Shown here: one piece after another, positions 33,168 through 47,425 of the stretch | Numbering within the stretch: the stretch's first letter is position 1 | Layout: every line of letters starts with the position of its first letter | Source of the DNA: Flavobacterium stagni | Lineage (GTDB): Bacteria; Bacteroidota; Bacteroidia; Flavobacteriales; Flavobacteriaceae | Direction of reading: 5' to 3' | DNA length: 64,000 bases | NCBI RefSeq assembly: GCF_004122105.1 | Contig: NZ_SBKN01000001.1 | Location: forward strand, 1 to 64,000 | The notes under the pieces: generated by a model | Databases searched by the model: none | What the model was told of the DNA's origin: nothing | What the model saw: the letters and a program-made list of their open reading frames with translations, nothing else | Position numbers and translations under genes: made by a program

Positions 33168-34832
<1,665 letters not shown>

Positions 34833-34854
34833 TTCATCAACTGATAAAAAAAGA

Positions 34855-34884
34855 AAATCCGACTCTTTCAAGTCGGATTTTTTT
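34855..34884 (+). terminator. Bidirectional terminator between groEL and dedA-like gene
   Basis: AAATCCGACT-ctttca-AGTCGGATTT with a T run on the plus side and A-rich sequence on the other. It serves the convergent groEL and DedA-family genes. Confidence 0.85.
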
Positions 34885-35551
34885 ATTTGCGTTTGCGAAG
34901 AATTTTTATCAAAACGGGAACTGTAGTGACCATCACAATTCCGATGACAATGTATTCGATATAATGCTTTAAATCGATATTGAATTTAATCTTAAAAAGT
35001 TCGTACAAATAATGTCCGGCAAAAATCATGACGATTGCCCATACAACCGAACCTAGTATATTGTAAAACATGAATTTTTTACGATCCATTTCTACAATAC
35101 CCGCAATGACGGGTGCGAAGGTGCGTACAATCGGCAGGAAACGTGCAAAAACGACGGCTCTACTTCCGTACTTATCGAAAAAATCTTTGGATTGGTACAA
35201 GTATTTCTTTTTAAAGAACAAACTATCTTCTCTTTTGTAAAGGTATGATCCGCTTTTTTTTCCAAACCAATACCCAAACATATTTCCGAAAATAGCCATT
35301 AATGCAATTAATAAGGCCAAGAAAGTCACATCGAGAAAATCACTCCCCGTTGCAAAATCTTTCATGAGTAATTCGCTATAAATCCCGCAAAGAAAAAGCA
35401 AACTATCTCCGGGCAAAAAGAAACCGGCTAACAAACCTGTTTCAGCAAAGACGATAAACAACACTACATATAAACCGATTTTTATTCCGCCTACTTGAAG
35501 TAAAATATAAAACTCGGGATTGAAGAGTTGCTTCCAGTCAAAATGATTCAT
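34883..35551 (-). CDS. DedA/SNARE-associated family membrane protein
   Basis: A 222-residue inner-membrane protein with about five hydrophobic segments. The conserved FAETGLLAGFFLPGDSLLFLCG (about 34-55) and FDKYGSRAVVFARFLPIVRTFAPVIAG (about 120-145) are the DedA signatures. Members support envelope homeostasis, and some are linked to undecaprenyl-phosphate recycling; the role here is unspecified. Confidence 0.92.
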   Translation of the reverse strand: MNHFDWKQLFNPEFYILLQVGGIKIGLYVVLFIVFAETGLLAGFFLPGDSLLFLCGIYSELLMKDFATGSDFLDVTFLALLIALMAIFGNMFGYWFGKKSGSYLYKREDSLFFKKKYLYQSKDFFDKYGSRAVVFARFLPIVRTFAPVIAGIVEMDRKKFMFYNILGSVVWAIVMIFAGHYLYELFKIKFNIDLKHYIEYIVIGIVMVTTVPVLIKILRKRK

Positions 35552-35618
35552 GTAGTCAATATTTCAGTTGGTGAAAATAGGCAATATTTTCGAAAGGACG
35601 TCTTAAATTTTTCACATT

Positions 35619-35660
35619 AAAAAAAAGAGACCGGTAACCAAACAGGAAGTCACCGGCCTC
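35619..35660 (-). terminator. Terminator of the DAB/SulP/porin operon
   Basis: On the minus strand GAGGCCGGTGAC and GTTACCGGTCTC form a near-perfect stem, followed by eight T. It lies 19 bp downstream of the porin-like gene and ends the four-gene run. Confidence 0.8.
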
Positions 35661-35678
35661 AAAACTAACACACTCTTT

Positions 35679-36998
35679 CTAATTTAAAAACACCTGATAT
35701 TGGGCTACTAAAGCGCCCATGTGATCGGTCAGGTCACTGTTAGCTGTATATAACGGCCGATTTTGGTACGAAAAAGTCAATTTCGAATTGTGACCGGCCA
35801 ACAACCAATTCACACCCACATCATAATAATTCATGGCGTCATGCAATCGGTCATAATTGGCATGTTGCACGGATGCATAGGGCATCAATGTCGTTTTACC
35901 CATTAAATTGTCTTTGAATTTATAACCAATTTGCGCATACAAAACCGTACCTGTTCCAAACATCGGGAAACCATTGCCCGATCCATTTAATAAATTGGTA
36001 TTCGTTGTACCGTTGGTAGGATTCATTATTGCAGAATTTCGGATGTAATTTTGACCAAAGTTATAGCTTACCAAAGTTCCATAACATGAAACTGCAGCTC
36101 CTTTTGCCCCTATTGGCGCATCATAAAACACATCTATTGCAAAATGTGACATGTCTTCCCTTTCAATTGAGTTGGGATCTGCAGCATCGGTTAAATGCCA
36201 CATTGCATCTTTTTGAAATATAAAACCTGCACCAACATTAAAGACTTTTTTCTTTCCTAAATAAGTACCTGTAGTATAGGGAGTCAAGTTACTTTCTTGA
36301 TCCAAAAATTGGTATTGAACATAGCCATTCCATTGAATTTTGGGAGGCTCCGCAGAAAATGCTGTTGTAGTTGTTAAAGCTGTAGCTGCATTGTAAGAAG
36401 GGCTTTTTTGAATTGCCATGGGTTGTGCCCATTCAAAACGATAATCAACTTTACCCAATTTCCCTTTAACAAATACCGACAATTTTCGCAAAAACTGATC
36501 ATTTACATCATTTGTAGATTGCAAAAAAATAGGTGAATCCAACCCCATTATCGAGGTTACTGAAGCCGCAGAAAAACGAGATAACCCACTCCATCCCGAC
36601 AAACCAGTACCTATTTGAAGTTTAGTTTTGTCAATTGCATAATCAGCAAATGCATCGTGTACAAAAAACCCCTGTTTCCGATCGGCTATGTTGTTAAAAT
36701 TATTTTCTCCAAATTGGCTGTAAAAAAACACGCGATCTGTGACTTGTGAAGTCAGTATTAATCGATAGCGTCGAATACCTAAATCTGTTCCTGAGTTCTT
36801 GCTATATCCATATATCGTAGAGCCAGGATTATATTCCATATTCCTTACCCAACCTTGAACAAGACCTGTTAATTTTATGTAATTACTTCCTGACTCGTTC
36901 AAGTTTAATTGATGATTTTTCCAATAATCTTGTGCAAAAATCAGATTATTAGTCATAAGTAACAGTAAACTTATAACCCCAAATAAACATTTTTTCAT
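35679..36998 (-). CDS. Outer-membrane porin-like protein
   Basis: A 439-residue protein with a signal peptide (about 1-22, ending IFAQ). Amphipathic strands alternate throughout (IKLTGLVQGWVR, RRYRLILTSQVTDRVFFYSQFG, VDYRFEWAQP), and the C-terminus VAQYQVFLN suits an outer-membrane barrel of the phosphate-porin/OprP-like kind. It starts one base after the SulP stop, so it is the last gene of a DabA-DabB-SulP-porin transcript. The inference is that it lets bicarbonate or another anion across the outer membrane; the substrate is not shown by sequence. Confidence 0.8.
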   Translation of the reverse strand: MKKCLFGVISLLLLMTNNLIFAQDYWKNHQLNLNESGSNYIKLTGLVQGWVRNMEYNPGSTIYGYSKNSGTDLGIRRYRLILTSQVTDRVFFYSQFGENNFNNIADRKQGFFVHDAFADYAIDKTKLQIGTGLSGWSGLSRFSAASVTSIMGLDSPIFLQSTNDVNDQFLRKLSVFVKGKLGKVDYRFEWAQPMAIQKSPSYNAATALTTTTAFSAEPPKIQWNGYVQYQFLDQESNLTPYTTGTYLGKKKVFNVGAGFIFQKDAMWHLTDAADPNSIEREDMSHFAIDVFYDAPIGAKGAAVSCYGTLVSYNFGQNYIRNSAIMNPTNGTTNTNLLNGSGNGFPMFGTGTVLYAQIGYKFKDNLMGKTTLMPYASVQHANYDRLHDAMNYYDVGVNWLLAGHNSKLTFSYQNRPLYTANSDLTDHMGALVAQYQVFLN

Positions 36999-36999
36999 G

Positions 37000-38589
37000 T
37001 TAAGCTATTTTTTTACGAGCAGCTAATTTATGTTCCGACAATGGCTGATGGGATTCTAAACCAATTATCTTAACTTTTCCGCCATCAACCGCTTCATAAT
37101 CGTGTTTGAAATGTTCCAAACTTTCCATGACCGAGTGATCGACCATTTTGGTTTTTTTCAAATCAATGGTCACATTAAACCCTGTTGGAATTTCTTCCAA
37201 TTTGCGTTTGATTCCCAAGAAATTGGTAAATACCGCTGCTTTATTAATTTCTACTAAATATTCATCGCCTTCAAATGACACCACTGTTGGCGCTTTAAAA
37301 AAGGAAGACAACGGCGTTCCATTAATCATGTGAACTATCATTTTCAACAAGATACCTGCTGCAATCCCAACCAATAAATCTTCGTATAAGGTGAAGAAAA
37401 TGGTGATTAAGAAAATCGACAATTGTTCTTTACCAATATGGAACGTATGCATGAATTCTTTGGGATGTGCCAAGCGAATCCCTACCGTAATTAACATGGC
37501 TGCCAAAGCTGTATTGGGTATCAATTCAATTAAATGGGATGCTAAAAGTACAAAGGCCAAAATGAAGAAACCATGATAAAAGTTAGCCCAACGTGTTTTA
37601 GCGCCATTAGCCACATTCGCAGATGAACGCGCTACCTCTGAAATCATGGGTAAACCCCCAAAAATTCCCGCGATGGTATTCCCTACTCCTACTGCAATTA
37701 AATCTTTGTTGGCATTGGATTTACGTTTGAACGGATCCATTAAATCAATTGCTTTTACGGTTAACAACGATTCTAAAGTTCCCACTAAAGCAAACATGAT
37801 TACGTATTTGATGAAAAGACCCGTTTGCGCCATTCCGCCAAAATCCACATTCACTTTTACATTATCCAAAAGATTTCCAATATGCACCAAAGCGTAAGTC
37901 GGCTCTGTCGTTTGAAAATCCATCATCAATTCGGCTGGAATCGCCACAAACAAGACCATAAGAGGAGCCGGAATCATTTTGATGTATTTATTTTTAAGAT
38001 AAGGCCAACCCAACATAATCGCCAAACTAATCACACCAATTCCCGTTGCTTTGGGATCTAAATGCGTAAAAAACTCGGGGATTTTAGCAAACAAACCTAA
38101 GGGACCTACTCCTTTTGTCATTGCAGGATCGACATCCAACAATACGGGAATTTGTTTGGCGATAATAATTAAACCGATAGCGGCCAACATACCGTGAATG
38201 GCTGACAATGGGAAGAAGTCAACTAATTTCCCGAATTTTAGAAGTCCGAATAGAATTTGAATCACACCCGCAACGACTATGGCTCCAAGCGCCAAATGCC
38301 ATCCTTGTTCACCGCCTCCAAATTCAGCTACAGCACCCGCAACAATTACAATCAATCCGGCCGCCGGACCTTTGATGGTTAAACGGGAACCCATTAAAAA
38401 ACTCACGACTAAACCACCAATAATAGCAGTAATCAACCCCATTAAAGGAGGAAATTCAGATGCTTTAGCAATCCCTAAACTTAGAGGTAATGCTAATAGG
38501 AAAACGATAAAACCGGAAATCGCATCGGTTTTGAAATATTCTTTTAAGCCGGCTAATCCGTCGGCAGGGATGTTTTTATATTGTGACAT
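37000..38589 (-). CDS. SulP-family inorganic anion transporter
   Basis: A 529-residue permease: about 10-14 membrane segments (20-420) and a C-terminal STAS domain (about 445-515). FIVFLLALPLSLGIAKASEFPPLMGL near the N-terminus and NANKDLIAVGVGNTIAGIFGGLPMISEVARSSANV (near 295-325) are SulP signatures. Family members carry sulfate, bicarbonate or other anions; the neighbouring dabAB genes favour bicarbonate. It lies 11 bp after dabB and 1 bp before the porin-like gene. Confidence 0.92.
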   Translation of the reverse strand: MSQYKNIPADGLAGLKEYFKTDAISGFIVFLLALPLSLGIAKASEFPPLMGLITAIIGGLVVSFLMGSRLTIKGPAAGLIVIVAGAVAEFGGGEQGWHLALGAIVVAGVIQILFGLLKFGKLVDFFPLSAIHGMLAAIGLIIIAKQIPVLLDVDPAMTKGVGPLGLFAKIPEFFTHLDPKATGIGVISLAIMLGWPYLKNKYIKMIPAPLMVLFVAIPAELMMDFQTTEPTYALVHIGNLLDNVKVNVDFGGMAQTGLFIKYVIMFALVGTLESLLTVKAIDLMDPFKRKSNANKDLIAVGVGNTIAGIFGGLPMISEVARSSANVANGAKTRWANFYHGFFILAFVLLASHLIELIPNTALAAMLITVGIRLAHPKEFMHTFHIGKEQLSIFLITIFFTLYEDLLVGIAAGILLKMIVHMINGTPLSSFFKAPTVVSFEGDEYLVEINKAAVFTNFLGIKRKLEEIPTGFNVTIDLKKTKMVDHSVMESLEHFKHDYEAVDGGKVKIIGLESHQPLSEHKLAARKKIA

Positions 38590-38600
38590 GATATTTATAT

Positions 38601-40469
38601 TTAAGATGATTTATAGGGTAATTCATGATAGGTTTTCACGTGGGGACCAAGGAAAAGTCGGGCATACAAACGAATCCCTGCAATCCCTGAAACGATAAAA
38701 CTTGAGGAGATTAAAAACGCAAGTATGTATTGATGACTTTCCACGTGACTAAAGATTAAGTCTTCTCCAATGAAAGTGGTTGTAATGGGAAATCCGGTGA
38801 TCCCTAAAGTGGCCAATAAAAAGAAAAAGGCAAACTTCGGATGTTCATAAACGTGGCCGAGGTATTGACTAATCAAAATGCGTTTTTCCATTTTTTTCAA
38901 CTTCAATAACGCCCAATAGCCCACCAATCCGGCAACTACAACACCTGATAAGTACACCGCAATTTCGGACCAATCTACTTTTTCATTGAAAGCAATGGCC
39001 AAGGCAATCCAAAAATGATTGAGCACCACTAAGGTCCAGGCCACAAACGGACTTTTTCTTTCTGAAAATGCTTTGAATACGAATATGAGTCCGAACAACC
39101 CAAATACCTCAGGCAAATTCCCCATAATTTGATACGGTAATTGGTCCCGGTAGAAAAAGCTGATCAGTCCTAATCCATACACAGGAAGAAAAACTAGGTA
39201 TACCCGATTAAGGTTTAGGAAATCCAACACCTTCCCGATTTTCTTTAGTGGGTGCCATAAAAACACGCTTAGAAATCCTTCAAGGTTGAACTCTTTAATC
39301 CCTAAAACATAGAGGGAATTGTTCCATTTTTGAGGAATCCATCCTTTGTGAGTGGTGTCTTTGGGTTGGAACGTATAAAATTGCTCCCGAATTAAATAAC
39401 TCACTACAGAAGGTGAAACCAATAACTGATAAGTTCTTAAAAAAGCATTTCCAGCAAAGTGAATCAAGGCCAAGGTATCCCATCCTAAAGCAATTTCAAT
39501 AAAAATTAATCCGATTTGGGAAATGGAACTGTACGCCACCTGACTCTTCACTGTCGATTGCACATTCGCCATCACAGAAGCGGCAATACTTGTTACCAAT
39601 CCCATCAAACCAATGGCAATTCGCATCGAAGTTTGGTGTTCCCAAAAAGGAAAAGTGCGCAACATCAAGAAAACACCCAAGTGAACGGACAAAGAGCCGT
39701 AGAAAATTGCACTGGAAGGCGTCGGACCTTCCATTGCTCTGGGCAACCAAGTGGAAAAGGGTACTTGCGCCGATTTTGCGGCAGCTGCACAAGCCAAACA
39801 CAAGGCGATAAATGCCCCGATGAAGGTGTGACTTTGCAAATGTTCGCTCACCAAGTCGGCATTCGCCAATTTCATAAATGTAATATTTTCATGAAATAAA
39901 TGATGGCTCGCCCACATCGCCAATATCAATCCCACATCGCCAATGCGGTAAACCGAATACACTTTGAAGGCATTGCGCACCGGCAAATAGCGCTCACGAT
40001 AAAATCCAATTAATAAAAAGGACGAAATTCCGATGATTTCCCAGCCAATAAAAAGGGTTTCAAAATTTCCAGACAAAATCGCCAAATTATAGCCAAAAAA
40101 GAAAAACAAAACCGTATTGAAAAAACGTTTATATCCTTTTTCTCGGTGCAAATAATACCGACTATAAGTGGTAATCATTCCCGTGAGTAACGTACCGATA
40201 AACAAATAAACAGCCGTTACTTTATCAAAATAAAAATCAACAAAAAACTCGTAATTCGCCGTTTTCAACAACGTGATTTCATTCAGGTTTAAAGGAGAAA
40301 ATCCCTTCAACAACCACACTACGATAAATGTTGTTAACCCTACCAATTGTAGAACTACCGTTCCAAAAGCCCATTTGGAAATTACTGCTTCATGACGTTC
40401 CGGCAAGACAAGACTTACAACGAAACCTACAAAAGGAAGCAGAATAAAATATTGCAATAACTCATTCAT
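38601..40469 (-). CDS. dabB: DabB-like proton-translocating subunit (NuoL/MrpA family)
   Basis: A 622-residue membrane protein of the NADH dehydrogenase subunit 5/NuoL family with some 14-16 helices. GWEIIGISSFLLIGFYRER (near 140-160) and SAQVPFSTWLPRAMEGPTPSSAIFYGS (near 235-260) are the conserved proton-channel segments. It is not next to other complex I genes but to dabA, which marks it as DabB, the ion-driven membrane partner of DabA in energy-coupled CO2/bicarbonate uptake. Confidence 0.9.
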   Translation of the reverse strand: MNELLQYFILLPFVGFVVSLVLPERHEAVISKWAFGTVVLQLVGLTTFIVVWLLKGFSPLNLNEITLLKTANYEFFVDFYFDKVTAVYLFIGTLLTGMITTYSRYYLHREKGYKRFFNTVLFFFFGYNLAILSGNFETLFIGWEIIGISSFLLIGFYRERYLPVRNAFKVYSVYRIGDVGLILAMWASHHLFHENITFMKLANADLVSEHLQSHTFIGAFIALCLACAAAAKSAQVPFSTWLPRAMEGPTPSSAIFYGSLSVHLGVFLMLRTFPFWEHQTSMRIAIGLMGLVTSIAASVMANVQSTVKSQVAYSSISQIGLIFIEIALGWDTLALIHFAGNAFLRTYQLLVSPSVVSYLIREQFYTFQPKDTTHKGWIPQKWNNSLYVLGIKEFNLEGFLSVFLWHPLKKIGKVLDFLNLNRVYLVFLPVYGLGLISFFYRDQLPYQIMGNLPEVFGLFGLIFVFKAFSERKSPFVAWTLVVLNHFWIALAIAFNEKVDWSEIAVYLSGVVVAGLVGYWALLKLKKMEKRILISQYLGHVYEHPKFAFFFLLATLGITGFPITTTFIGEDLIFSHVESHQYILAFLISSSFIVSGIAGIRLYARLFLGPHVKTYHELPYKSS

Positions 40470-40480
40470 AACCTTCTGTA

Positions 40481-42970
40481 TTAATTCATGATATAAACTG
40501 GTAAATTCTCAAGGGTCTCCACCACTTTTGGCATTTCATCTTGAATGACTTCCAATTGGGGAGTTAAGGGCTGATACAATTCAAATTGCTCGTTATCAAA
40601 ATGAAAAATATCGTGCGTTTCTGGGTGTACCACAACCAACTTCACCCATTGATTCTTGAACCATTCATAGGTCGCCTGATTTTTGGTTATCGCATATTTC
40701 GCAATCTCAGGAAAATGTTCGACCACAATTAAAATGCGTACGGGATCGTGCACTTCAATCATCTGACTCGGTAATCCCGGACGTAAATCGCCGTCGATTC
40801 CATTGGCCACACCAATCAATCCCATGACATTGTGGGGAAGTTTAGTTCCGGCACCTAACTTGTGGTTGTCGACTCGAGAAAAATAATATTCCAAATTAAT
40901 CCCACCGGCAACAGGCGCCACAGCTCCGAGAATTCCGGCTAAATAATCACCCGATGGATCCACTTCATAATCGTAGGAATTTAAAAACGAACGACGGTCC
41001 AAAAACAATTGTTTGGATAACGTTCGGCGGCCCACAATAGCCATAGCATTCGTGGCATGGTTCAATTCGGGACGCGGTTCAAAAAGCGATACCGAACGGC
41101 GTTTGATTTTTTCATGAATCGTTTTGGGATTCGCTTTTGAATCAATCAAATCAAAACGGCGGGAACGTTCAATGGCATTGGTTTCTAGCGCTCGTAAAAA
41201 AGTAAGTTCGTTGTGCTCGTGCAAATGACGATTGTGCTCTGTCAAGGTTTCTTCGTCATAAAATGTAATCTCATCGCGCGTAGTATCGTGCAAAGCCGGC
41301 AAGAATTGTGTGGTGAAAGGAATATGAATTCCACGTTTTTTCAACTCTTCTCGCACTTTAGGGTGATTGGCAGCAAAACAAGCTACTTTGGCATTCACCG
41401 AACTCGGACGACCGCTACATGCACCACAGTCGTAACCCGCATAATGCGTATTGTTAACACTGGTAGCACCATGACCTACAACATATACTATTGGCGCAAA
41501 ATGATCGACTAATCCGATACTTTTTAAAAGTCCTTCAAGACGATTGGCCATTTCTTCTACGGTGAATCCCACTTGCAAACCATCCACTTGATCCTCCAAA
41601 TTTTTATTTTCAATATGGAGTTGTGATTTTTTATGCAAATGTTTGAACGAGGCACTGGTTGCCGGAGTCATTTTTGGATTGAAAATATTCAAGAACAACT
41701 TCAAAGCGGCACTAAATCCGAGTGTTTGCGAAATTATCCAGCCAAAAAACAAATTGTGCGAACCTTTGTGATAGGTTAAATCCACCGCCTGCTTTTTCTT
41801 GCGGTCCATTTCTTTAATCAAATACTTTGGCGTAACGGGAGCGGGACACAGCTTGGTAAAAAACTTCCCGTTTACGGGTTGGTAAAAGAACTCGAAATTA
41901 AAGAAGGCCGCCGTACCAAAAGTCACAGCATTTTTATCCAAATGTTCAATATGACGTCGGAACGAACATTCGCGATCGTCCATACAAAACAAACCTTGGA
42001 ACGTTGGATTTTCATTTTTGGGTTCGGGTGCAACTAACTTAATTCCGGCCAATACTTGATCGTACAAAGACCATTCAAAAGCTTCTTGCCAAAGTTGATA
42101 GACTTCAAATCGCTCGTCTTCCTTGACAACTTCAAATAAATCAAAAGGCGATTGTTTAATTTTAAACGATAAAGGCGCCCAGATTTCATCGAACTTGGAA
42201 TCCAATGCATCAATTTCAAGCAACAATTCCAATTGAATAAACTCGGCTAAGGTAATGGATTTTTTATCCAACAATGAAGCTGGATTTTCTTCAATGGTAG
42301 CGACCATACCGCTCCAACCAGGATGTCCAAACTGTTGGTCAAACAAATATTGTTCGTAATAACGTTCATCACCCACGACAATATGGAGTAACTCGGTAAT
42401 GGATGCTTTTTTGAAAAGTAATTTTCGAGCTCGAGGCGCGTTGAATATACTGACAGAACTATTGCGTTCCAACGCTATGAGTCCGTCTAAAAGTCCGGCG
42501 GCTTCTAACGGAAATGGGTTAATCGAAACGCCTTGATCGAGGTAACTGCACACCAATTTGAAAAGCAAACCATAGGTCATTTTTTCCAAATTGACGGTAT
42601 ATTCTTTACGCCAATTGGAACGTAAAGCGCCAATGCGAGAAAAAGAAGATTCATCGTAGGCCGCATGCAGCATTTTTGAAGTCCAAGCTTCTACTGCGGC
42701 TTCGCCTTTGTGTTTTTGTATTACACGCTGTAGAATATCGGGTCGAATTTCCCCTTTGGCAAATCGCGAACGGAAGTCGGCTAACGACAAATAGGTATGG
42801 TATCCAAAAATCGTAGCCGCTTCATGCAAAGCTTTATGAAAATTGCGATCCTGAAACGCATGCAAGGTATTGTGATGCACGAAATCCTTCAGCGGATTTT
42901 GCGCCGGTAAATAGTGCTTGAGGTGATGAAGAACATGTGATTCTTCAAAACCATGTGCGGTATGTTTCAT
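40481..42970 (-). CDS. dabA: DabA-like inorganic-carbon transporter subunit (DUF2309)
   Basis: An 829-residue DUF2309 protein, the carbonic-anhydrase-like subunit of the DAB dissolved-inorganic-carbon accumulation complex. The zinc site described for DabA has Cys and Asp two residues apart and, much later, His and Cys 15 residues apart; here Cys329/Asp331 in FCMDDRE and His500/Cys515 in VGHGATSVNNTHYAGYDCGAC match both spacings. Thus it is probably catalytically competent. It is first in the operon, with 97 bp between it and the next gene upstream. Confidence 0.92.
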   Translation of the reverse strand: MKHTAHGFEESHVLHHLKHYLPAQNPLKDFVHHNTLHAFQDRNFHKALHEAATIFGYHTYLSLADFRSRFAKGEIRPDILQRVIQKHKGEAAVEAWTSKMLHAAYDESSFSRIGALRSNWRKEYTVNLEKMTYGLLFKLVCSYLDQGVSINPFPLEAAGLLDGLIALERNSSVSIFNAPRARKLLFKKASITELLHIVVGDERYYEQYLFDQQFGHPGWSGMVATIEENPASLLDKKSITLAEFIQLELLLEIDALDSKFDEIWAPLSFKIKQSPFDLFEVVKEDERFEVYQLWQEAFEWSLYDQVLAGIKLVAPEPKNENPTFQGLFCMDDRECSFRRHIEHLDKNAVTFGTAAFFNFEFFYQPVNGKFFTKLCPAPVTPKYLIKEMDRKKKQAVDLTYHKGSHNLFFGWIISQTLGFSAALKLFLNIFNPKMTPATSASFKHLHKKSQLHIENKNLEDQVDGLQVGFTVEEMANRLEGLLKSIGLVDHFAPIVYVVGHGATSVNNTHYAGYDCGACSGRPSSVNAKVACFAANHPKVREELKKRGIHIPFTTQFLPALHDTTRDEITFYDEETLTEHNRHLHEHNELTFLRALETNAIERSRRFDLIDSKANPKTIHEKIKRRSVSLFEPRPELNHATNAMAIVGRRTLSKQLFLDRRSFLNSYDYEVDPSGDYLAGILGAVAPVAGGINLEYYFSRVDNHKLGAGTKLPHNVMGLIGVANGIDGDLRPGLPSQMIEVHDPVRILIVVEHFPEIAKYAITKNQATYEWFKNQWVKLVVVHPETHDIFHFDNEQFELYQPLTPQLEVIQDEMPKVVETLENLPVYIMN

Positions 42971-43067
42971 GATGTATAAATAAAAGTTAAACGATTGACT
43001 TTAAAGCGGAAAGACCGCGAATCAATTCGTAAGCCCGGGGTGGGAGCATAAAACGTTTAAACTTTCT

Positions 43068-43463
43068 TTATACTAAGTGTATTTTAAGTTTACAGAAAAG
43101 AATATACAACGGTTGGGGTGAAGTGACCGTTGATTCTGTTGTCGTTTGAAGATAATCGGAGGAAGATTTGAAAAAATGAAAGATGCGTTCTTGGATACCA
43201 AAATCACAACAATCTAAAACATCATCACTTTCTGCTTCTTCAAAATCAGATTGATCATCATTTTCGGTCAAAACACTTCCTTTATATACCGAAGCATTAA
43301 CCCCTAACTTTTTTAAGGAATTCTCTTGCTTTTGAAGGAATTTGGAATTGGAAACCGAATAATTAAAATTGAGCTGCGAGAATAAAATCGACAATAGAAA
43401 AAGTGCCGAAACAAAGTTTCGGTTCCAAAAGGAAACACGGTATCTTTTTGTCAATTTGCTCAT
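43068..43463 (-). CDS. Small exported or membrane-anchored protein, unknown
   Basis: A 131-residue protein with a basic N-terminus and one hydrophobic segment (about 18-36, FVSALFLLSILFSQLNF), then a polar part with an acidic cluster (NDDQSDFEEAESDDVLDCC, about 68-86) containing a Cys pair. I do not recognise a family. It has its own promoter (43473-43500) and lies 97 bp upstream of dabA on the same strand, so it could be co-transcribed with the DAB genes, or belong functionally to the Cys-rich metal cluster upstream. Confidence 0.6.
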   Translation of the reverse strand: MSKLTKRYRVSFWNRNFVSALFLLSILFSQLNFNYSVSNSKFLQKQENSLKKLGVNASVYKGSVLTENDDQSDFEEAESDDVLDCCDFGIQERIFHFFKSSSDYLQTTTESTVTSPQPLYILFCKLKIHLV

Positions 43464-43472
43464 AATCGGGAA

Positions 43473-43500
43473 CAAAGTTATTGGAATTTCAACACGCCAA
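43473..43500 (-). promoter_or_regulatory. Promoter for the 43068-43463 gene (and perhaps dabA operon)
   Basis: On the minus strand TTG (43498-43500), a 17-bp spacer and TAACTTTG (43473-43480), 10 bp upstream of the ATG at 43463. A terminator lies just upstream, so it starts a new transcript. Confidence 0.6.
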
Positions 43501-43522
43501 CTCTTTTTTAAAGAAATTTTTA

Positions 43523-43553
43523 CAAAAAAAATCCCGAAAACAATTTCGGGATT
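43523..43553 (-). terminator. Terminator of the metal-cluster transcript
   Basis: On the minus strand AATCCCGAAA-ttgt-TTTCGGGATT is followed by eight T, 10 bp after the stop of the HMA-protein gene. Confidence 0.85.
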
Positions 43554-43562
43554 CGTCTATTA

Positions 43563-43898
43563 TTAGCGTTCATACTTGCAACAGTGATGTAATTTATCAT
43601 ATACTGCATCGTCTGCTTTCATATCACCTACATCATGTCCCACGGCTACAATCGCTTTTTTCACAGCCGTAACATCTGTTTTTTCTTCATTAATGATAAC
43701 ATCCAACTGATGTGTTTCGATATTCCAAACCGCGGATTTGACGCCTTTTACACTATACGCCGCTTTTTCTATACGCTGTTTACAGGTTTCACAATTACCA
43801 TTCACCTCAAAAGTGTAGGTCGCATTTTTATTTTTCTTTTCTTGTGCTTGGATTCCCACACTGAAAAGGGTTACTAAAAGAATTACTATTGTTTTCAT
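43563..43898 (-). CDS. Exported heavy-metal-associated (HMA) domain protein
   Basis: A 111-residue protein with a signal peptide (1-19, ending IQAQ) and one HMA fold (about 26-93). The metal-binding loop is GNCETC with Cys36 and Cys39, the usual G-M-x-C-x-x-C with Asn in place of Met. A second Cys pair (106-107, HHCC) ends the protein. It is most likely a periplasmic metal carrier working with the TonB receptor 15 bp upstream. Confidence 0.88.
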   Translation of the reverse strand: MKTIVILLVTLFSVGIQAQEKKNKNATYTFEVNGNCETCKQRIEKAAYSVKGVKSAVWNIETHQLDVIINEEKTDVTAVKKAIVAVGHDVGDMKADDAVYDKLHHCCKYER

Positions 43899-43913
43899 TT
43901 GAATTAATTTTAA

Positions 43914-45920
43914 TTATTTGATTTTATAACGGAGTCCGGCATACAGCATTCGACCAAACACTGGAGCATATACGATGGTGGCATCGAAATAATTACCAAA
44001 GGGATTATCGGTGCCTAAAACAGCGCGTTGTTGACGGTAATTCAACACATTTTCGCCTCCTAAATACATTTCAAAAGTGGGTGAAAATACGCGGGTAATT
44101 TGTGCATTAACTAACGAAAACGCCGGAGATTTTGCGCCCAACTGTTCACTTATGGGATTGTTTTGCGTATTGGGCAATTGCTGAGCTCCCAACCAATTGT
44201 AAGTCACATCCATTTTCCACAAACGGTTTTTATCTGTGGTTGCTGTTTCGTAGGCAACGTTACTAAAAAACCGATGTCGTGCTTGCAATGGACGCTGAAA
44301 ACGACCCGATTGGAAGTCGGTTGCCAAATCATAATACTTATACGAATTACGAATGTTCAATCGGTGAATGGGTTCGATATTGAAATCCAACTGTACACTA
44401 TTGGCGTAGGAACGTCCTTGCAAATTATAGAACAACACTTGTTGGGCATTTTGCATGACATCAACGACAACTTGGTTTTGAAAATCTGTGCGATAAACAT
44501 CCAAAGTAACTTCTGAATTTTTATTGAATAATCGGAATTTCTGGGTAAAACTTACTCCATAATTCCACGCAATTTCAGGATCTAAACCGTACAATTTCCC
44601 ACCGCTATTTTGAATAACAAATTGACGGGAACTTCCAAAATACTGTTGGTTTTCAGCAAAAATATTCGCAGCGCGTTTGCCTCGACCTATAGAAAATCGA
44701 AACACACCCAAATCCCACGGATTGTAGCGCACATGCAATCTTGGCGTCATAAAAATGCCCAAGCGATTATGGTAATCGACACGACCTCCGATGATATAAC
44801 TGAAGGTTTTTCCATTGTCGAAAGTATATTCAAAAAAGGTTCCGATTGAATTATCGATCCGACTGAAATCGGTTGCATTCACCCATTCGGTGTAGCGATC
44901 CAACGTATAATTGAGTCCGGTTGAAAATTTATTCCGCGTATTTTGAATAATCGAATTAAAGATAAAATTGGAATAGGCACTTTGTTGTTTGATATGGTAG
45001 GTGCGTAATCCAAAATATGATTCCTGATTGTGGTACGAAAACGCATTTTGCCATCCCATACTTTGGTAGGGCATTCCCTTAAAAACATAGCCTGTTTTCG
45101 ACGAAAAATCCAATCGCTCCGTATTGATCTCAGAACCCCAAAAAGTGGTTGTCCCTCGATGTTTATTGGGGTCAAAATCCACTTGACCGGATTGTTTACG
45201 ATCATTTAAATATTTGACATTAAAAAAAGAAACCCAGCCTTTTTCAGCATTGGTGTATTGCCAACGATTGGTCACATTTATTTGCTTACCGAGTGGATTA
45301 TCCAAAAACCCGTCGTTGTTCATGTCGTTTTTACCCACTCGGGTATTGCCATGAATGAACAAACTCGAGGCCCAATGTTTGCCTAATTTCCGATTAAAAT
45401 GGGTATTTAACTCATACCGATTTCCCGAATCACCATAAGCATTCAAGAAAAACGGAATGTCTTTAAGTGGTTTAATTAATTCCGTATTGATTTGGCCAGA
45501 AATACTTTCGTAGCCATTTACCACACTCCCTGCACCTTTGGTAATTTGAATACTTTCTACCCAAGTTCCGGGCACAAAGGACAAGCCATAGACTTGTGAA
45601 GCGCCACGCACCATCGGAATATTCTCTTCAGCTATGAGTAAATAGGGACTTGTGAGTCCGAGCATTTTGATCTGCTTGGTTCCCGTCAACGCATCAGAAA
45701 AATTGACATCGATGGACGGATTGGTTTCAAAGCTTTCGGCGAGATTGCAACAAGCCGCTTTGAGCAATTCTTTGGACGACACGGTTGTCGTATTAACAGT
45801 AGTACTTAATGATTTTTGTAGTCCGCGATTGTTGTTTTTCACTTTTACTTCATCCAACTTTTGTTGTGAAAAAATAAATGTAGAAAACAACAACGTCGTG
45901 ACTAACGTTATTTTTTTCAT
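43914..45920 (-). CDS. TonB-dependent outer-membrane receptor, probable metal receptor
   Basis: A 668-residue receptor: signal peptide (about 1-18), plug domain (about 35-145) with ELLKAACCNLAESFETNPSIDV, where the CCNLAESF variant with a Cys pair is typical of a receptor group linked to HMA and HYC_CC_PP genes, and a beta-barrel (150-668) ending in GRMLYAGLRYKIK. No carboxypeptidase-like N-terminal domain or partner SusD is present, arguing against glycan uptake. The start at 45920 (MKKITLV) is chosen over 45944. The Cys-rich neighbours suggest copper or a similar metal as ligand. Confidence 0.88.
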   Translation of the reverse strand: MKKITLVTTLLFSTFIFSQQKLDEVKVKNNNRGLQKSLSTTVNTTTVSSKELLKAACCNLAESFETNPSIDVNFSDALTGTKQIKMLGLTSPYLLIAEENIPMVRGASQVYGLSFVPGTWVESIQITKGAGSVVNGYESISGQINTELIKPLKDIPFFLNAYGDSGNRYELNTHFNRKLGKHWASSLFIHGNTRVGKNDMNNDGFLDNPLGKQINVTNRWQYTNAEKGWVSFFNVKYLNDRKQSGQVDFDPNKHRGTTTFWGSEINTERLDFSSKTGYVFKGMPYQSMGWQNAFSYHNQESYFGLRTYHIKQQSAYSNFIFNSIIQNTRNKFSTGLNYTLDRYTEWVNATDFSRIDNSIGTFFEYTFDNGKTFSYIIGGRVDYHNRLGIFMTPRLHVRYNPWDLGVFRFSIGRGKRAANIFAENQQYFGSSRQFVIQNSGGKLYGLDPEIAWNYGVSFTQKFRLFNKNSEVTLDVYRTDFQNQVVVDVMQNAQQVLFYNLQGRSYANSVQLDFNIEPIHRLNIRNSYKYYDLATDFQSGRFQRPLQARHRFFSNVAYETATTDKNRLWKMDVTYNWLGAQQLPNTQNNPISEQLGAKSPAFSLVNAQITRVFSPTFEMYLGGENVLNYRQQRAVLGTDNPFGNYFDATIVYAPVFGRMLYAGLRYKIK

Positions 45921-45969
45921 GAATAATAATTTAGAATTCGACAATTAAAGCATAAGGTCGAAAACTAAA

Positions 45970-46386
45970 TCAGGCGTAAAAAACAAATTGGGAATAGAGT
46001 TGGTATAGCGGAGGCCCGTGGGCATCACAATAATACGCCAAAACTTGCGAAGAAATGGATGGCGTAGCTAGTACTGTTTGAAAATGATATCCCGGAATTT
46101 CAAATTTTACAAAGTGAAAATCGGGGGCTATATTTTTTACTAAAACTTTGGCAGAAGTGTCTTTGAAGGTCAGTTGCTTGTCGTCACAACAACTCATTTT
46201 TTTGGGCTTTACTTCTGATTTCCCACAACAACTTTGTTCTACATCTTTGAAGAATTCAGTACTGCCTACTACGGTTTCAACAGACGCGACTTCCCCGGCA
46301 CAATAATGCACATGCAAGGCAATACCCATTTGGGCTACCAAAATTAATAGGGCAATAGTACCGCTAAACAACTTTTGAAATCGCAT
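45970..46386 (-). CDS. HYC_CC_PP family protein
   Basis: A 138-residue exported protein with a hydrophobic N-terminal signal (about 8-24) leading straight into HVHYCAGE. Two Cys pairs follow (SCCGK near 77, MSCCDD near 90), and the C-terminus has DAHGPPLYQLYSQF. These HYC, CC and PP motifs define the family, which is restricted to Bacteroidetes and of unknown function. It is 49 bp upstream of the TonB receptor; with the HMA protein it makes a three-gene metal-handling set. Confidence 0.88.
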   Translation of the reverse strand: MRFQKLFSGTIALLILVAQMGIALHVHYCAGEVASVETVVGSTEFFKDVEQSCCGKSEVKPKKMSCCDDKQLTFKDTSAKVLVKNIAPDFHFVKFEIPGYHFQTVLATPSISSQVLAYYCDAHGPPLYQLYSQFVFYA

Positions 46387-46440
46387 GAGGCAAAGGTAAA
46401 AACAAAAAATGGAAATTTTTATAAATTGCTGTTAAACAAA

Positions 46441-46893
46441 CTATTTTGGGTGTTTAATCCGCTTTTGATAATAAAATGCAGGTACAAAAAGCAGGAGGAA
46501 TAAGGGCTGAATCAAAAATCGGCGCAAATAAAACAACTCCACTTTGTGTGTATTTCCAAAATTGAATAAGACAACAAGAAAAGCGACAAACAAAACAAGC
46601 CCCAATACAGTGTATAAGAAAGAGGCAAATTTATTCATTCTCCGATCTTTGAAAATAAAATGAATAATGCCTAGAGACAATACGGAATTGATGATATAGC
46701 GAAAAGCAATGTTTAGACTAAAATTAAAATGATCCAAATGCGGAATGGGTTGGTTTTGAAAATCCCCTTTAAAATAAACTGTCAACGGATCATAAAAAAA
46801 TACGGTTTCCCCAGCACGAACAGCAATGAGAAGCAGAAGCAATATCCCGAGGATAAAAATTTGCAGTTTACTTTTGAGTAGTTCCTTTGGCAT
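46441..46893 (-). CDS. Exosortase F system-associated membrane protein
   Basis: A 150-residue protein with four membrane helices (about 12-28, 58-80, 90-110, 123-142). The segment RAGETVFFYDPLTVYFKGDF (starting near 26) and RYIINSVLSLGIIHFIF are characteristic of the protein encoded next to XrtF in Flavobacteriia. Its gene overlaps the 3' end of the XrtF gene by 26 bp, suggesting translational coupling. Its biochemical role is unknown. Confidence 0.85.
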   Translation of the reverse strand: MPKELLKSKLQIFILGILLLLLIAVRAGETVFFYDPLTVYFKGDFQNQPIPHLDHFNFSLNIAFRYIINSVLSLGIIHFIFKDRRMNKFASFLYTVLGLVLFVAFLVVLFNFGNTHKVELFYLRRFLIQPLFLLLFVPAFYYQKRIKHPK

Positions 46894-47425
46894 ATTTAGA
46901 AAAACGATTGACCCAAATCATCCACAAAATAAAAACTATTCCGTAAATCAATAAGGGAAATAAAACCCCGTGCAAGAGATGTTCTGCCTTTGGAAAATGG
47001 TACAACGCTACCGCTAATAAGGCAATTCGTAGGATATTGGCGATATGAATCACCGCAATCCCGAAAGGTAAAAACCAAACCATGGCTTTTAATTTTCCTT
47101 TAAAAGCGATGACAAAACTGACAAAAAGTATCATGACACTAATGGCATTACACCCTTCCACTATTCGGGCGATCCATCGGTGATGAAAGAATAATTTTAC
47201 ACCAGCCTCTTTGGGATTGGGGTCTATGTAGGCTTCTGAATCGACGAGTTGCAACACGCATTTAGATTGTTCGGCAACCCATTGAGTGATACCGTCAACT
47301 TCTTTCCTTTCAACCGAAAACTGCTCTAAATAAAGGGCATAACAATACGCAAGCACCACATACGTCAATGCAAATCGAAGCAAAAAAAAGAGGAATGGAC
47401 GGTATTGTTTGAAGTATGAGGTCAA
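46868..47425 (-). CDS. xrtF: Exosortase family protein XrtF
   Basis: A 185-residue inner-membrane protease/transpeptidase of the exosortase superfamily. The catalytic triad is evident: Cys92 in VEGCNAISVM, Arg133 in NILRIALL and His152 in HLLHGVLFPL, each next to a membrane helix. The family recognises C-terminal sorting signals on exported proteins; the target of XrtF is not in this window. The gene overlaps its partner by 26 bp and is 71 bp from the divergent GAF gene. Confidence 0.92.
   Translation of the reverse strand: MTSYFKQYRPFLFFLLRFALTYVVLAYCYALYLEQFSVERKEVDGITQWVAEQSKCVLQLVDSEAYIDPNPKEAGVKLFFHHRWIARIVEGCNAISVMILFVSFVIAFKGKLKAMVWFLPFGIAVIHIANILRIALLAVALYHFPKAEHLLHGVLFPLLIYGIVFILWMIWVNRFSKYAKGTTQK

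Follow-up and report, generated by a model that had tools for sequence, protein, structure and literature searches.

The locus described here lies in a 64,000-nucleotide (nt) stretch of the Flavobacterium stagni genome (assembly GCF_004122105.1, contig NZ_SBKN01000001.1, positions 1–64,000), referred to below as the window. Four genes on its minus strand encode a DabA protein, the NuoL-like partner DabB, a SulP permease and an outer-membrane porin-like protein. These genes, and intergenic gaps of 11, 11 and 1 bp (from the open reading frame coordinates), are as an earlier sequence-only reading of the window had described them. That reading, however, began the operon one gene too late, overlooking a small open reading frame at positions 43463–43068 immediately upstream of dabA. 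This open reading frame, termed the leader, is the most unusual part of the locus. The features, in the direction of transcription, are:

43473..43500, minus strand: match to a Bacteroidota-type promoter (TTG, 17 nt, TAACTTTG), a few bases 5′ of the leader start codon
43068..43463, minus strand: leader open reading frame, 131 amino acids (aa) plus stop, with a hydrophobic N-terminal segment, an acidic middle and a conserved C-terminus that reaches the stop codon
42974..43073, minus strand: predicted RNA hairpin, with the leader stop codon within its 5′ arm and a 3′ arm that stops 3 nt before the dabA ATG
40481..42970, minus strand: dabA, 829 aa, PF10070, with a zinc site like that of beta-carbonic anhydrases (C329, D331, R333, H500, C515)
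38601..40469, minus strand: dabB, 622 aa, NuoL-like membrane partner, PF00361 and PF00662
37000..38589, minus strand: sulP permease gene, 529 aa, PF00916, a member of the SulP group linked to dab and barrel genes
35679..36998, minus strand: outer-membrane porin gene, 439 aa, predicted barrel, OprO and OprP closest
35627..35660, minus strand: terminator-like hairpin 3′ of the porin gene, 13 pairs followed by a T run

Directly in front of the leader are the promoter match and a terminator-like hairpin that belongs to the preceding gene. The consensus used for the promoter match is taken here to be that of Bacteroidota. The layout is best explained by the leader, dabA, dabB, sulP and porin genes forming one predicted transcription unit. 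It should be noted that open reading frames were called by a simple script and their start positions are uncertain.

The leader open reading frame

Counts across Bacteroidota come from a set of 141 loci, i.e. 60 regions picked from class-level DabA places (which exclude the window and several contig-end fragments), the best 80 of 566 confirmed relatives, and the window. Two of the loci gave no match to the dabA model and nine were divergent or partial. The 130 that were kept reduce to 118 when near duplicates are removed, and 81 of these have enough flanking sequence for operon counts.

A small open reading frame (<170 aa) on the same strand is found within 400 nt upstream of 124 of 163 operons that have dabA or sulP, and seven of the remaining operons are at contig ends; this looser count includes four divergent dabB-dabA loci with an unrelated small open reading frame. 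A strict automatic test, with a profile that excluded the tested locus but retained its relatives, detects a leader upstream of 55 of 81 dab operons; of 480 control genes, 2 have one. Both positives among the control genes precede genes that look NhaD-like and RND-like by eye, and these two may be true leaders. Leader-like open reading frames were seen before an NhaD-like gene (L084:3802-4125), an RND-like operon (L129:16506-16874) and a porin gene (L048:13238-13579), and the leader class may extend beyond carbon uptake.

The leader is the first gene regardless of gene order, and it also precedes sulP-porin operons and SulP-carbonic anhydrase operons that have no dab genes. In seven loci (L108, L112, L115, L116, L122, L127 and L130) dabAB and sulP-porin operons are arranged head-to-head and each operon has a leader of its own. 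A diffusible protein would not require two, thus this arrangement points to an element that acts in cis.

SulP-carbonic anhydrase operons are preceded by a sister form of the leader, in which a run of prolines lies a few residues short of the stop codon. A loose motif, applied with no control, places this form upstream of SulP in 19 of 30 loci, including the second SulP operon of this genome and three genomes of the same genus with no detected DabA. In 4 of the 11 misses the carbonic anhydrase gene comes before sulP, so that a leader would fall outside the searched stretch.

Gapless alignment of 111 non-redundant leaders at the stop codon shows raised information content only in about the last 12 positions; from position −13 on it is mostly at the level of shuffled ends. 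The C-terminal consensus is P at −11, L/I at −10, Y/F at −9, L/I at −8, R/K at −5, L/R at −2 and I/L at −1, and this peptide end is common to distant taxa. A profile of the last 12 residues, applied leave-one-out, exceeds 5 bits in 78 of the 98 main-type leaders, against 10 of 497 other small open reading frames (seven of the ten are near-duplicate leaders removed earlier) and one of 1434 larger proteins. Close to the N-terminus, 106 of the 111 leaders have a strongly hydrophobic segment, judged by hydropathy alone and without a signal-peptide predictor, as do 139 of 371 other small open reading frames. An acidic patch is present in 97/111 and 41/371, respectively. In the window leader about 90 residues, counted by eye, separate the N-terminal segment from the conserved end.

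Nine pairs of Flavobacterium leaders were compared by codon. The proportion of nonsynonymous differences (pN) is well below that of synonymous differences (pS) across the open reading frame, and dN/dS is 0.24–0.47 in the eight pairs for which it could be computed. Over the last 14 codons pN is 0.00–0.09 and pS ranges from 0.00 (one pair) to about 1, the pS values being rough with 14 codons. The last codons thus change almost only synonymously, which shows that the peptide end and not the DNA is conserved. On these codon comparisons, the leader is under selection at the protein level.

The leader family is described by neither a Pfam nor an NCBIfam model, as found in scans of 43 leaders. Each NCBIfam model matched three of them at most (best E-value = 0.0078), and none of the 25 Pfam families listed, out of 32, matched more than one (best E-value = 0.0032). 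DUF2946 is absent from these 25 families, and the window leader itself has no Pfam match.

Several other accounts of the leader were set aside. A chance open reading frame is ruled out by the alignment, the profile, the pN/pS values and the strict test. A subunit of the DAB complex is not the first choice, since both leader forms precede operons without dab genes. A search of positions 34500–46500 for known RNA elements gave one match, below the gathering score and far from the leader (34847–34918). The dab-type motif is not widespread in the genome: a 21-base pattern occurs at 6 places, only the window leader being a credible end of an open reading frame, and the reversed control gave 0.

The −7 promoter element TAnnTTTG is found upstream of 78 of 109 leaders, in 0 of 109 spacers between leader and gene, and in 89 of 784 coding windows of 310 nt. 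The full two-part promoter pattern is found in 22/109, 0/109 and 8/784, respectively; the spacers are shorter, amounting to 10,983 nt in all against 33,790 nt of upstream sequence.

The window hairpin (43073–42974) has a predicted energy of −24.2 kcal/mol (z = −2.82), and 1 of 200 shuffled sequences was equally stable. Spacers between leader and gene have more predicted structure than the remaining spacers in these loci (median z of −2.08, n = 103, versus −0.94, n = 90). RNA pairing peaks around the leader stop codon, where it is 0.54 at position −3 compared with 0.32 in 296 controls. Pairs between the stop region and the start region average 5.8 (n = 98), compared with 2.1 in shuffles of the same spacers and 2.4 in 150 controls. 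Terminators were also considered; they are not enriched in leader spacers (9/103 versus 62/389).

The transport genes and their linkage

In the 81 non-redundant, fully covered loci, sulP is in the dabA operon in 59 and within 6.5 kb in 67. An outer-membrane barrel gene is in the operon in 43 and within 6.5 kb in 53, and a beta-carbonic anhydrase gene is in 9 of the dabA operons. Gene orders differ (dabA-dabB-sulP-porin, sulP-porin-dabA-dabB, and divergent operons), thus the linkage is not merely one inherited arrangement. Whether sulP and the porin are linked to dabAB in relatives was one of the checks proposed in the sequence-only reading, and these counts show that they are. The same reading had regarded the porin as dedicated to the DAB module. 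A barrel does recur beside dabAB, but all 43 barrel-bearing operons also hold sulP, and two different barrels are used, this porin in 21 operons and DUF2490 in 22 (the DUF2490 family name was verified on one member). The barrel tracks SulP, not DAB. A search of open-licence papers yielded no report of DAB associated with SulP or a porin in Bacteroidota, and none of leader peptides for inorganic carbon.

DabA matches PF10070 with 705 bits over profile positions 2–747 of 747. The zinc site that had been predicted (Cys329, Asp331, His500, Cys515) is present with the residues as given: they align with C351, D353, H524 and C539 of the solved DabA2 (9rd0), and the dyad arginine is also there, R333 aligning with R355. 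The five catalytic residues C, D, R, H and C are invariant in 24 of 24 aligned DabAs. Residues matching those of the zinc site are the ones mutated in the DAB2 study, as described in PMC13144422. At position 424, 21 of 22 DabAs of the window type have Lys or Arg.

DabB, with a match to PF00361, adjoins dabA in 81 of 81 operons. For the second half of the protein, comparison with NuoL is limited, as the predicted model aligns across about residues 1–444 only. Two acidic residues, E569 (54 of 56 sequences) and D570 (56 of 56), are conserved, and the stretch that contains them aligns weakly with the complex I subunit ND5 (phmmer, DabB positions 537–596, 6.2 bits).

The genome has a single DabA, and its closest named relatives are from Flavobacterium. 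Distribution is patchy: of 150 genomes of the genus 16 have DabA, and at class level 63 of 295 do, the window genome being counted in both. RuBisCO has no match in the whole genome, which agrees with the lack of carbon-fixation genes noted earlier for the window.

Other DabA arrangements were observed. Seven loci (L036–L041 and L075) have a divergent type of DabA, with dabB first and a LysR-like gene on the opposite strand; four of the seven have an unrelated open reading frame of ~100 aa upstream. In L109 (5253–13851), L111 and L139, dabAB is next to genes that by eye resemble a Hyf/complex I-like membrane module. Bacteroidota-like dabAB genes were found in records labelled as other phyla: L151 (Azotobacter chroococcum), L163 (a Nitrosomonas communis metagenome-assembled genome) and L139 (a Planctomycetota metagenome-assembled genome). 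These labels represent either contamination or transfer.

SulP matches the PF00916 transporter domain with 217 bits, as expected from the earlier description of a SulP with a STAS domain. The STAS part gave no Pfam match at E ≤ 0.01, and the C-terminal stretch looks STAS-like by eye and by length. The solved structure closest to the window SulP is 6ki1, which is taken here to be BicA. In a tree of 106 SulPs, 19 of the 21 that are linked to carbonic anhydrase form a clade with 2 others (support 0.993). The second SulP of this genome is in this clade, and the window SulP falls outside it. The single PF00484 carbonic anhydrase gene of the genome is behind the second sulP, in another operon.

The fourth gene had been read as encoding an outer-membrane porin-like protein, and its AlphaFold model is in accord with this, being a beta barrel with a mean predicted local distance difference test score of 89.3. 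The best structural matches of the model are OprO (Z = 25.0 for a mutant and 24.8) and OprP (Z = 24.7), with a root-mean-square deviation of 3.1 over 310–311 residues; general porins are close behind (Z = 23.6), and the OprP/OprO type is thus not sharply resolved. The porin has no Pfam match and in NCBIfam only one to porin_ExtI (48.5 bits, below the cut-off of 150). A sequence search of the PDB with the porin gave matches at chance level only. A porin paralogue in the same genome (L194:8089-9465) adjoins an MFS-like transporter gene, which suggests that the porin family pairs with various inner-membrane carriers.

Proposed mechanism and alternatives

In the proposed mechanism DabAB would carry out a one-way hydration of cytoplasmic CO2 to bicarbonate, driven by an ion gradient. 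SulP would most likely bring bicarbonate through the inner membrane, and the porin would pass anions through the outer membrane. Bicarbonate as the substrate of SulP and the porin is suggested by gene context and partners, and by 6ki1 being the closest solved SulP. In a heterotroph bicarbonate would supply carboxylases.

The leader product would be a small peptide directed to the membrane. Translation of its final ~12 residues, up to the stop codon, most likely makes the ribosome slow down or stall where the leader gene ends. A ribosome on the leader stop codon would cover the 5′ arm of the hairpin, and the dabA start near the 3′ arm would stay translatable; when the ribosome departs, the hairpin would close. 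Ribosome release would be governed either by peptide export or by a signal that the acidic middle encounters. This explanation as a whole, a leader peptide that regulates an inorganic-carbon uptake module by arrest or delay at its own end, is considered somewhat more probable than its opposite.

A number of observations weigh against it. Twenty-six of the 81 dab operons fail the strict leader test, some being near misses and others leaderless, and in L109 (624–2665), L113 (6842–8892) and L163 (6474–8448) genes that by eye are response regulator- and kinase-like lie directly 5′ of dabA, in place of a leader. The sister-form count has the loose motif and the lack of a control mentioned above. 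At least six stop-start pairs form in 40 of 98 spacers (25 of 150 controls), and 58 of the 98 are below six. RNAalifold gave no common long stem in 10 Flavobacterium spacers, a stem named by hand is 91% paired with a single pair changing on both sides (weak covariation), and the nearest relative (L096) does not form the stop-start hairpin. The C-terminus of CutF, by analogy the closest working model for the leader, did not stall by itself in the fusion assay reported in PMC9973294. As to the transporters, the window SulP scores 141.8 bits against the NCBIfam BicA equivalog, whose cut-off of 880 is not reached. In DabA, the residue aligned with the finger glutamate of DAB2 (E444) is N428, and the finger (408–433) has an acidic residue in 0 of 22 DabAs of the window type. 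The conserved Glu-Asp of DabB, together with Lys/Arg 424 of DabA, may replace this glutamate; the alignments suggest that the coupling residue is relocated in the DAB of this group.

Alternatively, the leader product might work in trans as a small protein that is exported or sits in the membrane, for example an accessory subunit of the transporters or their periplasmic sensor, the C-terminus serving as a binding motif. Selection at the protein level and the hydrophobic N-terminal segment are consistent with this, and DAB1 of H. neapolitanus is described in PMC13144422 as including a small third membrane protein. However, the separate leaders of the head-to-head operons, the leaders before sulP-porin and SulP-carbonic anhydrase operons without dab genes, the restriction of conservation to the extreme C-terminus, and the position of the leader as first gene in any gene order make a trans-acting protein unlikely, if still worth some weight. 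More improbable is that the region works as RNA only, i.e. that a hairpin, or coupling to the translation of any upstream open reading frame, sets dabA expression and the peptide sequence is irrelevant. The excess of structure in leader spacers over controls would fit such a role, as would the importance of structure at start sites in Bacteroidota, which are described in PMC6847099 as having no Shine-Dalgarno sequences. But the last 14 codons keep their amino acids while synonymous sites change in 8 of 9 Flavobacterium pairs, and the peptide end is shared by distant taxa.

A different doubt concerns the cargo. SulP and the porin could carry another anion (sulfate, phosphate or a dicarboxylate), their place in the dabAB operon having some other reason, such as joint regulation at high pH. 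SulP substrates vary and the window protein is far under the BicA cut-off; the porin paralogue is beside an MFS-like transporter gene, and OprP/OprO folds also carry phosphate. The recurring partners, on the other hand, are dabAB, and beta-carbonic anhydrase for the sister SulP clade, and the closest solved structure is 6ki1, presumably BicA. Another anion is thus judged rather unlikely.

A broader proposal extends the arrest mechanism to inorganic-carbon uptake throughout Bacteroidota (DAB, SulP-porin and SulP-carbonic anhydrase). Nascent peptides destined for export would, while on the ribosome, act as sensors of inorganic carbon, of periplasmic pH or of proton-motive force. They would arrest at the stop codon of their own reading frame and switch a hairpin over the first transport gene between open and closed. 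This is put forward tentatively, as a possibility with the balance against it. If true, a nascent chain would serve as a carbon-status sensor, in addition to the Sec/YidC and copper cases. Should the main explanation be right, bacteria would set their intake of CO2 and bicarbonate by stalled translation, and an unannotated regulator would be present on carbon-uptake genes phylum-wide. DAB complexes of heterotrophs also gain a two-membrane context, with SulP and one of two outer-membrane barrels.

Comparison with known systems

The criteria given in PMC10987492 for upstream open reading frames encoding arrest peptides are an unassigned function, an N-terminal signal, a conserved C-terminus and a spacer of >30 residues. 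As described there, the search was confined to sec and yidC genes, and in two groups found in Bacteroidota the ribosome stalls when the stop codon occupies the A site. The leader is likewise a small unannotated upstream open reading frame with an N-terminal segment, a spacer of >30 residues and a conserved C-terminus, and would by this resemblance be a candidate for stalling. It differs in being upstream of dabA or sulP and not sec or yidC, and its motif, P-(L/I)-(Y/F)-L...(R/K)..(L/R)-I or PPPE, differs from the RAPP, NAP and NSP given for the peptides of that study. Upstream open reading frames of the RAPP type precede many kinds of genes in PMC12992588, the main text of which has no mention of bicarbonate, carbonic or SulP. 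The geometry of the window hairpin is that of SecM-type control, where the downstream start stays accessible as long as a ribosome is halted on the leader.

CutF is described in PMC9973294 as an exported peptide that senses extracytoplasmic copper, with a proline-rich C-terminus and a hairpin that control the next gene. An exported peptide and a hairpin covering the next start are the proposed points of likeness. Unlike CutF and CruR (PMC9973294, PMC9426467), the leader has an acidic middle in place of the CxxxC copper motif reported for CutF, its targets are carbon-uptake genes, and a DUF2946 match was not seen in the families listed above. Elsewhere in the window, a protein of the HYC_CC_PP family (NF047658) is encoded at positions 45970–46386 (minus strand), 25 nt before a TonB-receptor-like gene. 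Its N-terminus is signal-like, it has Cys/His motifs, and its C-terminus, which reaches the stop codon with a PPLY-type motif, is conserved in Flavobacterium relatives. It may represent, in Bacteroidota, a counterpart of CutF and CruR, which are copper-sensing leaders. The neighbouring positions 46441–47425 (minus strand) encode exosortase XrtF and an exosortase F-associated membrane protein.

BicA (6ki1) and the SulP-carbonic anhydrase pairs share the SulP fold with the window protein, and the sister clade is beside beta-carbonic anhydrase, in this genome too. The window SulP differs in its place outside that clade and in its score below the BicA cut-off. MpsAB of Staphylococcus aureus is a DAB homologue in a heterotroph, reported in PMC6689103 as needed at atmospheric CO2; S. 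aureus has no outer membrane and hence no barrel.

DAB2 of Halothiobacillus neapolitanus (DabA2-DabB2, 9rd0; PMC13144422) shares with the window proteins the catalytic C, D, R, H and C and an adjacent NuoL-like DabB. The window operon adds sulP and a barrel gene, its host is a heterotroph, and its DabB has 622 aa, compared with 551 in DAB2, the window type having E569/D570. DAB2 is described as using E444 of the finger, where the window type has no acidic residue at positions 408–433. This glutamate couples transport in DAB2 and is not given as something that all members of the family must have. A DAB that lacks the finger glutamate needed in DAB2 is a natural variant with which this coupling mechanism may be probed.

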